Source: a virus. From it: a DNA stretch of 28,366 bases. The notes beneath the pieces are model-generated. The model ran no database searches. It had not been told where the DNA came from and saw only the letters and a program-made list of their open reading frames with translations. The stretch is taken from positions 1 through 28,366 of IMG/VR virus record IMGVR_UViG_3300028388_002847. One strand, given 5' to 3'. Shown in pieces: positions 6,242-9,086 of the stretch. Position 1 is the stretch's first letter; every line of letters begins with the position of its first letter. A program made the position numbers and the translations under genes.

Positions 6242-6865
6242 ATGTCCAAGGTACTCACCACCCCCGAAGCCACTCTCAGCTACCCGAGTGTCTTCACCCC
6301 CCGGGCCATGAACGAGGGCGAGACGCCCAAGTACGAGGCGACCTTCGTCTTCGGGCCCGACGCCGACCTCACCGAGATCCGCCAGGCCATCCGGAAGGTG
6401 GGCCAGGACAAGTGGGGCGAGAAGTTTCAGGAGATGCTCAAGTCCGGCAAGGTCCGGCTCCCCCTCCGCATCGACTGGGAGGAGAAGGGCTACCCGGAGG
6501 ACTCCACGTTCTTCGCGGCCCGCTCCCACAACAAGCCCGGCGTGGTCAGCGTCTACCCGTCGGAGCACGACCCCAGCAAGCCCGCTCTCATCGAAGACGA
6601 GAGCAAGATCTACCCGGGGTGCATCGTGAAGGGCCTGGTGTCCTGCTACGCCTACACCAAGCCCCAGCCCGGGATCACCTTCGGGCTGGAGGGTCTCCAG
6701 AAGATCCGCGACGGCGAGCGGCTGGATGGCCGCGTGAACGCGCAGTCCGTCTTCGAAGTGGACGAGTCGGCCTTCGCCGCACTCGACAACGCCCTCGACT
6801 CCGACGAGGAGACCGAGGAGCCCTCCACCGAGAGCGATGACATCATGGCGATGCTTGGCGGCTGA
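6242..6865 (+). CDS. ssDNA-binding protein, DUF2815 type
   Basis: A 207-residue protein matching the layout of DUF2815 phage proteins. The N-terminus is LTTPEATLSYPSVFTPRAMN with EGETPKYEATFVF, the middle section is basic and aromatic (YPEDSTFFAARSHNKPGVVSV), and a YPGCIVKGLVSCYAY strand precedes the Gly-rich GITFGLEGLQKIRDG segment. The tail is acidic (DSDEETEEPSTESDD), as in OB-fold phage SSBs such as T7 gp2.5, where it contacts replication partners. The start has GGAGG about 6 nt upstream. The gene ends one base before the structured non-coding gap. Confidence 0.85.
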   Translation: MSKVLTTPEATLSYPSVFTPRAMNEGETPKYEATFVFGPDADLTEIRQAIRKVGQDKWGEKFQEMLKSGKVRLPLRIDWEEKGYPEDSTFFAARSHNKPGVVSVYPSEHDPSKPALIEDESKIYPGCIVKGLVSCYAYTKPQPGITFGLEGLQKIRDGERLDGRVNAQSVFEVDESAFAALDNALDSDEETEEPSTESDDIMAMLGG

Positions 6866-6940: not shown

Positions 6941-7020
6941 GGGGGCGGATATGGCTTCGACGGTTGGGAAGCCCGCTTGTCGGGACCGACCGGACCAGGG
7001 TTCGATTCCCTGCGCCTCCA
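6941..7020 (+). ncRNA. tmRNA tRNA-like domain without the mRNA-like domain (mini-tmRNA candidate)
   Basis: The 80-nt stretch folds as a tRNA-like domain. The acceptor stem is GGGGGCG 6941-6947 with CGCCTCC 7013-7019, including a G3-U70 wobble (6943/7017) and A73 at 7020. The T-arm is CAGGG-TTCGATT-CCCTG (6996-7012). As in tmRNA, there is no normal D-arm: TGGCTTCGACGG (6952-6963) matches the E. coli ssrA 5' element at 11 of 12 bases as I recall it, and GGAC (6992-6995) precedes the T-stem as in ssrA. Where tmRNA has pseudoknots and the tag ORF, there is only a helix, CGGTTGG 6961-6967 with CCGACCG 6986-6992, capped by CCCG-CTTGT-CGGG (6972-6984). No anticodon arm is present. G3-U70 and A73 are alanyl-tRNA synthetase identity elements. 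CCA is not encoded; the bases after A73 are CTA. Confidence 0.72.
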
Positions 7021-7025
7021 CTACA

Positions 7026-7077
7026 GCCCACCCCCACGCCCAGGATGGGCACGGTTGGGGAATCGCAGGGGGTGGGC
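7026..7077 (+). other. Three-way-junction RNA structure before the polymerase gene
   Basis: A perfect 10-bp stem, GCCCACCCCC 7026-7035 with GGGGGTGGGC 7068-7077, encloses two further hairpins. These are GCCCA-GGA-TGGGC (7038-7050) and CGGTT-GGGG-AATCG (7052-7065). It lies 6 nt after the tRNA-like domain and about 20 nt before the polymerase ribosome-binding site. It could be a leader that controls polymerase translation, a 3' stability element for the small RNA, or an origin structure; the sequence does not decide. Confidence 0.55.
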
Positions 7078-7106: not shown

Positions 7107-9086
7107 GTGGTAATCAGTATCGACTTCGAAACGCGCTCGACGCTGAATCTCAGAAGGTCCGGCGTCTATCCTTATGCGATGCACCCGGACACCGATGTCT
7201 GGGTGATGGCCTACGCCGTGGATGACGGCCCCGTCGAGGTCTGGCGACCCGGCGACCCGGTCCCTTCCACTTTCCGGAATCCGGAAAAGGTGGACGAGTA
7301 CCGGGCCTGGAACGCGGAGTTTGAGCGGGTCATCTACGCCGCCATCCTGGCCCAGCGGTACGGGTTCCCACCGGTCCCCCTGGAGAAGTGGTTCGACACC
7401 GCCGCCCAGGCCGCCGCCATGGCCCTCCCCCGTGGACTGGGCCAGGCCGCCGAGGTCCTGGGTCTGAAGGAGCAGAAGGACTCCGATGGCCGGAGGCTGA
7501 TGCTCCAGATGGCCAAGCCCCGCCGCATCGAAGATGACGGCACCATCATCTGGTGGGACGTGCCGGAGAAGATGGAGCGCCTGGTGGCCTACTGCGTCCA
7601 GGACGTGGAGGTGGAGCGAGCCATCGGGAAGGTCCTGCCCCCGCTGTCCAAGAAGGAGCGATGGGTCTACATCATGGACCAGCGGGCGAACACCCGGGGG
7701 TTCCAGGTGGACCTGGAGCTGGTGGCCGCCGCCCAGGATGTCATGGGCGTGGAGATGGAGCGGGCCGGGGAGCGACTGGGGGAGATCACCGGCTACGAGG
7801 TCACCAAAGTGACAGATGTGAACGGGATCACCTCCTGGTTGAAGAACAACGGGCTCCCCGACCTGCCCAACCTCCGGAAGGACACGGTCCGGGATCTCCT
7901 GGAGGATGATAAGGTGGACGGCCCGGCCCGGGAAGTGCTCCAGATCCGGGCGGACACCGGGAAGACCTCCACAGCCAAGCTGGACGCCTTCCAGGCCGCC
8001 GCCGGGCCCGACGGACGGGTCCGGGGCACCTTCCTGTACCACGGGGCCTCCACGGGCCGCTGGAGCGGTCGCCTGGTCCAGCCCCAGAATTTCCCCCGGC
8101 CCGAGATGCGGGACCCGGAGAAGTACATCAGACCCATCCTGGAGGATGATGTCTGGCCCCCGAGCCACCCTGCCCCGGCCATCGTGGTGTCCTCCCTCCT
8201 CCGCTCCATGATCGTGGCGGGGCCGGGGAGGATCCTCCGGTCCGGCGACTACTCCCAGATCGAAGCCCGGGTGATCGCCTGGATCGCCGGACAGGAGGAC
8301 CTCCTGGATCTCTTCGCCCGGGGTGGGAAGGTCTACGAGGACATGGCCTCCACCATCTTCGACAAGCCGCTGGAGGAGATCGCCAAGGACTCCTTTGAGC
8401 GGCAGATCGGGAAGAATTCCATCCTGGGCTGTGGCTTCGGGATGGGAGCGGACCGCTTCGCTGACCAGGTCTGGGAGCAGACCGGGATCGTCCTGGACCG
8501 GGGAGACCCGGAGGAGGGACGCCCCGACATGGCCCAGAAGGTGATCGACACCTACCGGGCCAAGAACCACCGGATCAAGTCCTTCTGGGACGAGATCTAC
8601 TCCGCCGCCTACTCCGCCACCCTGCACCCTGGGAAGGCGTTCCACTGTGGGCGGGAGGGTTGCATCCGGTTCAAGGTCTACCAGGACGTGCTCTGGTGTA
8701 CGCTCCCGAGCGGGCGGCACCTGGCGTACTCCATCCCCCGGATCGAAGACCGCATGACCCCATGGGGCGAGATGCGCCCCACCCTCACCTACTGCGGGGT
8801 CACGGGCCCCGCCAGGAAGTGGAAGCGGGTGTCTACCTACGGCGGGCACCTCACCGAGAACGTGGTCCAGGCCATCGCCCGTGACTGCATGGCCGAGGCG
8901 TGGCTCCGCTTGGAAATTGCGGGCTACCCAATTATCATGACTGTCCACGACGAGCTGGTGGCCGAGCCCAGAGCGGGGCACGGATCCCAGGAGGAATTCG
9001 AACGCATCCTCGCTACTCGTCCTGCCTGGGCCCCTGACCTGCCCATCGCCGTAGAGGGCTGGGAAGGAGACCGGTACCGCAAATGA
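7107..9086 (+). CDS. Family A DNA polymerase with 3'-5' exonuclease
   Basis: A 659-residue replicative polymerase. The exonuclease motifs are SIDFETRS (D6, E8), AWNAEFERV near residue 70 and YCVQDVEVE near 163. The polymerase motifs are A, DYSQIEARV (D381); B, R432...K436...L440-G...F444 within RQIGKNSILGCGFGMG; and C, VHDEL (D615). The residue aligned with E. coli Pol I Phe762 is Leu and that aligned with Tyr766 is Phe. I chose GTG 7107, with GGGAG 5 nt upstream, because the open frame before it lies in the structured RNA gap. It resembles both ordinary phage PolA and DpoZ of 2-aminoadenine phages; motifs alone do not separate them. Its TGA overlaps the primase-helicase ATG. Confidence 0.92.
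   Translation: MVISIDFETRSTLNLRRSGVYPYAMHPDTDVWVMAYAVDDGPVEVWRPGDPVPSTFRNPEKVDEYRAWNAEFERVIYAAILAQRYGFPPVPLEKWFDTAAQAAAMALPRGLGQAAEVLGLKEQKDSDGRRLMLQMAKPRRIEDDGTIIWWDVPEKMERLVAYCVQDVEVERAIGKVLPPLSKKERWVYIMDQRANTRGFQVDLELVAAAQDVMGVEMERAGERLGEITGYEVTKVTDVNGITSWLKNNGLPDLPNLRKDTVRDLLEDDKVDGPAREVLQIRADTGKTSTAKLDAFQAAAGPDGRVRGTFLYHGASTGRWSGRLVQPQNFPRPEMRDPEKYIRPILEDDVWPPSHPAPAIVVSSLLRSMIVAGPGRILRSGDYSQIEARVIAWIAGQEDLLDLFARGGKVYEDMASTIFDKPLEEIAKDSFERQIGKNSILGCGFGMGADRFADQVWEQTGIVLDRGDPEEGRPDMAQKVIDTYRAKNHRIKSFWDEIYSAAYSATLHPGKAFHCGREGCIRFKVYQDVLWCTLPSGRHLAYSIPRIEDRMTPWGEMRPTLTYCGVTGPARKWKRVSTYGGHLTENVVQAIARDCMAEAWLRLEIAGYPIIMTVHDELVAEPRAGHGSQEEFERILATRPAWAPDLPIAVEGWEGDRYRK

Follow-up and report, generated by a model that had tools for sequence, protein, structure and literature searches.

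A phage RNA reduced to the tRNA-like domain of tmRNA has many viral relatives with strict alanine identity

Results

A tmRNA without its mRNA-like domain

The 28,366-nt viral DNA analyzed here (IMG/VR record IMGVR_UViG_3300028388_002847, a linear fragment of 28.4 kb, hereafter the window) raises the question of what a phage would do with an 80-nt RNA that carries both ends of a tmRNA and lacks most of its middle. The element lies on the plus strand at 6941 to 7020, downstream of a gene for a Gp2.5-like ssDNA-binding protein (6242–6865, plus strand; phrog_112, E 6.6e-34) and upstream of a DNA polymerase gene (7107–9086, plus strand; phrog_17, E 3.4e-109). The GTG at 7107, read by eye, is the likely polymerase start and is preferred because a longer ORF from 6951 would overlap the RNA. 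Model R1, described below, gave no match in relatives of the window SSB (39% identity, L086–L088), which shows that this gene neighborhood does not always include the RNA. A perfect 10-bp inverted repeat, GCCCACCCCC/GGGGGTGGGC, is located between the RNA and polA at 7026–7035/7068–7077, and a scan found no terminator-like T-run there.

The Rfam tmRNA model RF00023 matched 6941–7023 (plus strand) with 65.7 bits, above its gathering threshold of 47 (E 1e-23). The match runs from the first to the last model position but lacks 308 of the 374 positions in between. R1, a covariance model derived from other phages, matched 6941–7020 with 65.3 bits (E 1.2e-15). The original prediction, that only the tRNA-like domain (TLD) of a tmRNA is left, had therefore placed both ends exactly. 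The 5′ strand of the acceptor stem (6941–6947) pairs with 7013–7019, as supported by the sequence and by covariation in relatives, and G6943 and T7017 form the G3-U70 pair. It is followed by a tmRNA-type D-region, GATATGGCTTCGA (6948–6960), identified in the RF00023 alignment. The tag ORF and pseudoknots of tmRNA are absent. The whole insert that replaces the mRNA-like domain (6961–6992) consists of a 7-bp, H2-like connecting helix with one G-U pair (6961–6967/6986–6992), supported by sequence and by covariation in relatives, and an inner hairpin seen in the sequence that caps it (6972–6975/6981–6984). The GAC at 6993–6995, part of the conserved GGAC, leads into a T-arm at 6996–7012, in which a 5-bp stem (6996–7000/7008–7012) closes the loop TTCGATT, as indicated by sequence, RF00023, and covariation. 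The 3′ acceptor strand and A73 occupy 7013–7020, with A7020 as A73. The alanine determinants G3-U70 and A73, which had been predicted to be kept, are thus both present. CCA is not encoded, and the genomic DNA continues with CTA after A73.

The element has no anticodon arm and is not a cloverleaf tRNA, as anticipated; RF00005 had no match in the window, and ARAGORN, suggested as a further check, reported neither a tRNA nor a tmRNA. Nor is it a permuted, two-piece tmRNA. Its halves stand in normal order and are joined by one helix, permuted tmRNA models stayed below threshold on the window, and only RF00023 reached it. No second or hidden mRNA-like piece, no complete or permuted tmRNA, and no SmpB gene were found elsewhere in this linear 28.4-kb record. 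With no tag frame, the element is not a tmRNA in the strict sense; structurally it is a TLD-only phage tmRNA of the DS6A type. Thermodynamic folding of the 80-mer is unremarkable (z −0.70), and energy folding predicts a different fold in the 244-nt intergenic context. The case for the element is therefore built on homology and covariation, not on folding energy.

Related elements form a broad, apparently viral class

The class was collected by four pattern scans together with R1, which was trained on 12 sequences from a single subgroup, without the window. This yielded at least 276 elements at no fewer than 274 loci, with at least 187 distinct sequences, nearly all on viral contigs. Single linkage at 80% identity divides them into at least 55 clusters, and the window element is alone in its own. 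The strict pattern run over IMG/VR retrieved 63 contigs, 62 of which share the architecture, the exception being a tRNA. When the window and three contigs from bacterial genomes, of which one is the same phage contig, are added, the result is a strict set of 43 distinct sequences. R1 recovers nearly all contigs fetched in the three further pattern scans, among the matches listed. It separates the class, since a few tRNA-Ala genes, which were set aside, scored only up to about 32 bits, and the full-length tmRNA of L083 gave no match at the threshold used. Between TTCGAC and GGAC, insert lengths concentrate at 28–31 nt although the patterns permitted about 14–46, a distribution unlike that of chance deletions.

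Under stricter filters, bacterial samples from two phyla gave 1 match in 396 and 1 in 301, only the seed MAGs from the pattern scan, and a Prochlorococcus single-cell match sits on a contig that equals an IMG/VR contig in length and carries the same element; the class thus looks viral. SmpB was encoded in none of the 19 carrier records tested, and a full-length tmRNA accompanied the mini form in none of 18, implying that the mini-tmRNA must use host proteins.

A BLAST search of phages with the window element matched tmRNAs of Cellulophaga phages only, and these only at the 3′ end; they are full length where annotated. Representatives L028 and L023 led to Streptomyces phages, and L051, L019, L075, L022, and L001 found no TLD-only record. 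Several candidates were discarded. L027 is a tRNA and a false match; several pattern matches in genome contigs were judged by eye to be tRNAs, ordinary tmRNA 3′ ends, or unclear; and a 324-nt ARAGORN “tmRNA” in L015 and L048 has the same 3′ end as the TLD-only match and was treated as a chance 5′ extension. Two contigs each hold a pair of diverged TLD-like elements, both members with G3-U70 (L072:592–668 and 737–800; L133:5–81 and 1317–1392).

The three helices covary

The acceptor stem, the T-stem, and the connecting helix all covary strongly in alignments A4 and A3 (53 and 76 distinct sequences, respectively), which were fitted to the model structure and are somewhat biased toward it. In A4, which includes a few false matches, 94.6% of cells pair and 16 of 21 pairs have changed on both sides; its covariation score is 0.527, whereas shuffles give 0.113 and slid structures no more than 0.070. 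In A3, whose rows are loci outside R1 training, 97.6% of cells pair and the score is 0.672 against 0.122 for shuffles, with counts of double-change pairs and of pair types not clearly above shuffles. The compensatory changes in the acceptor and T-stems on which the original prediction had staked itself are thus present in both alignments, as is covariation of the helix at 6961–6967/6986–6992 that it had singled out. This covariation marks the element as a functional RNA. TTCGAC, GGAC, and most of the T-loop were fixed in all scan patterns, and their conservation is therefore no independent evidence.

The alanine identity pair is nearly invariant

G3-U70 is an established identity element for AlaRS (PMC3985003). 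It is present in 43 of 43 strict-set sequences, for which the acceptor lay outside the search pattern, and all seven acceptor pairs can form in every one of them. The relaxed patterns fixed U70 and A73, which leaves the strict set as the sole unbiased test of the alanine determinants; the relaxed sets are still informative in that the fixed U70 is partnered by G, not A. Among the matches listed, pair 3-70 is G-U in 191 of 194 aligned rows, the other three being a weak match, a permuted tmRNA, and an end-truncated match, and all 194 have A73. In the same rows, acceptor pairs 4, 5, and 6 each occur in at least four standard types with compensated changes. As G3-U70 is fixed while pairs 4–6 vary freely with compensation, alanylation appears to be under selection. 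Also among the matches listed, the base after A73 (position 74) is C in 174 of 187 distinct elements, and the full CCA is encoded in 69 of 276.

Carriers place the element in varied settings

Six named cultured Streptomyces phages (pSt2308, LuckySocke, GiJojo, Alone3, BRock, and Shaeky) carry the element, which is not annotated as tmRNA. The tRNA arrays of pSt2308, LuckySocke, Alone3, and BRock contain it after a tRNA-Val gene, with no tmRNA annotated, and in Shaeky it sits between tRNA-Phe and tRNA-Leu. In GiJojo, the mini-tmRNA is overlain by gp44 (L305:599–841), a hypothetical protein gene that was probably annotated in error. Compensated changes distinguish the acceptor stems of BRock, LuckySocke, and pSt2308. 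The T-stem of Alone3 is mismatched, and this element, the only clearly decaying copy seen among the matches listed, may be degenerating.

In other carriers, the element lies between a head-protease-type gene and the gene for the major head protein (L004 group), upstream of a portal gene (L038, L044, and L051), 0.45–0.6 kb from integrase genes (L014 and L023 groups), or, like the window element, in replication regions. Among the matches listed, 44 of 276 elements have a tRNA gene within 500 nt.

Pistol ribozymes above the Rfam cut-off were observed in three carriers (L015:6093–6154, minus strand; L037:706–767, plus strand; L022:1621–1716, plus strand). Those of L015 and L037 are on the same strand as the mini-tmRNA and about 0.1–0.2 kb upstream, a placement from which it is conceivable that they might trim its precursor. 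In a tRNA-rich region of L006, a gene of phrog_850, a phage RNA-binding protein family, lies about 3.5–5.1 kb upstream of the mini-tmRNA, and related genes occur in L002, L025, and L043. The L006 protein resembles those of the TROVE/Ro60 type.

Discussion

Relation to known TLD-only RNAs

The original prediction knew of full tmRNAs in phages and of no TLD-only version. As a kind, the TLD-only phage tmRNA has in fact been known since 2009, and PMC4131195 gives the tmRNA of mycobacteriophage DS6A (tmID 11587) as “TLD only”. The likeness to DS6A, as that RNA is described, is that of a phage-encoded molecule consisting of little more than a TLD; the two differ in host and gene context, or these are not given, and it is for the DS6A type of molecule that inhibition is reported. 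According to PMC4131195, citing Mao et al. 2009, tmRNA is strongly inhibited by a molecule similar to the DS6A form whether or not it can be charged, possibly through titration of SmpB, and PMC11915505, citing the same work, reports that a TLD-only form inhibits endogenous tmRNA in E. coli. The breadth of the class and its strict alanine identity look new; a partial coverage of the literature, which is weak evidence, returned no report of either.

Tag-less mitochondrial tmRNAs of jakobids and the plastid forms of about 65 bp in Mallomonadaceae likewise have a TLD without a tag frame, but they are organellar, the mitochondrial genes are usually permuted, and their SmpB is nucleus-encoded in the same cell (PMC11915505). 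Full-length phage tmRNAs such as those of Cellulophaga phage Calle_1 and Enterococcus phage EfsSzw-1 share the TLD signature of the mini form, whereas they keep the mRNA-like domain and reach about 350–360 nt. A nearly identical layout is that of the Thermus thermophilus TLD construct crystallized with SmpB (PDB 2CZJ), in which the 5′ 25 nt and 3′ 34 nt are joined by a short loop (PMC3985003). That construct is man-made, whereas the phage RNA is natural and conserved.

A candidate competitor of host trans-translation

Our analysis favors, with some confidence, the view that this small RNA acts as a dominant-negative, alanylated competitor of host tmRNA in trans-translation. RNase P and host 3′ processing would cut the mini-tmRNA from the ssb-polA transcript, CCA would be added, and AlaRS would charge it by way of G3-U70 and A73. 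The RNA would then bind host SmpB and EF-Tu as tmRNA does, depriving host tmRNA of SmpB. Those copies that are charged may, in addition, move into stalled ribosomes and accept the nascent chain, which, without a resume codon, would be neither tagged nor released. The predicted outcome for this phage is a weakening of host trans-translation during infection.

This dominant-negative reading is supported by the tmRNA homology, the covariation, the fixed G3-U70, and the finding that the tested carriers encode neither SmpB nor a full tmRNA, as well as by the DS6A form, the inhibition reported for a similar molecule, and the nearly identical layout of the TLD-SmpB construct. Against it stand the unremarkable folding energy, the other fold predicted for the intergenic region, and the SSB relatives that lack the element.

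The reported inhibition is independent of alanylation, and simple titration of SmpB thus does not explain the strict G3-U70. Pure titration would let this pair drift as pairs 4–6 do, and no such drift is seen. Charging with alanine therefore probably matters, and with it the delivery to stalled ribosomes by EF-Tu that we infer. More tentatively, TLD-only mini-tmRNAs as a whole could be widespread phage RNAs against trans-translation that are selected for alanylation and serve as false tmRNAs on the ribosome, through dead-end chain acceptance or repeated alanine addition, and not as simple SmpB sponges.

The alanine identity would equally suit a tagless rescue RNA, since such a molecule needs its charge. 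Alanylated TLD with SmpB would take the chain plus one or several alanines in stalled ribosomes and free them with other factors, as suggested for the tag-less mitochondrial tmRNAs, which co-occur with mitochondrion-targeted SmpB (PMC11915505). We consider this unlikely: without a stop codon, the release step is not obvious, and PMC11915505 and PMC4131195 describe a similar molecule that inhibits in E. coli and does not rescue.

The proximity of tRNA genes to part of the class bears on a different role. Arrays of tRNA genes in phages may serve against defenses directed at tRNA, and the RNA could be a decoy for another factor that acts on tRNA or tmRNA, such as a tRNA-targeting defense nuclease, leaving trans-translation unaffected. 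This is improbable, as such nucleases usually attack the anticodon arm, which is missing here, and the D-region and H2 are of the tmRNA type and point to SmpB.

The decoy role in trans-translation was one of three raised by the original prediction and stays plausible, whereas the other two, a processing signal and an ssrA relic, are disfavored by the strict G3-U70, by the occurrence of at least 55 clusters in many settings, and by the placement in tRNA arrays of some phages. A cis-acting fold for RNase P and RNase Z cuts in the ssb-polA transcript would agree with a position between two co-oriented genes, and a tRNA-like structure is expected to be an RNase P substrate. It is nonetheless highly doubtful, because processing enzymes do not need G3-U70, yet this pair is fixed while others drift, and because other phages place the element in tRNA arrays or between head genes. 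That the element is what remains of a captured ssrA gene or of an attachment site, as the frequent use of tmRNA genes as integration sites and the nearby integrases of the L014 and L023 groups might suggest, is very improbable and was rejected: compensatory evolution extends across at least 55 clusters, the two ends of the gene persist, linked by a helix that covaries and hardly changes in size, Alone3 is the one clearly decaying copy among the matches listed, and no integrase was seen near the element in the window.

We found a single phage with a TLD-only tmRNA, DS6A, named in the literature; the same architecture is present here in at least 274 loci. The strict G3-U70 argues for an in vivo role of alanine charging, although the inhibition reported in E. 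coli needed none. With the alanine mark kept throughout, these RNAs most likely jam host ribosome rescue, and whether phages switch off or rewire this process is now directly testable.
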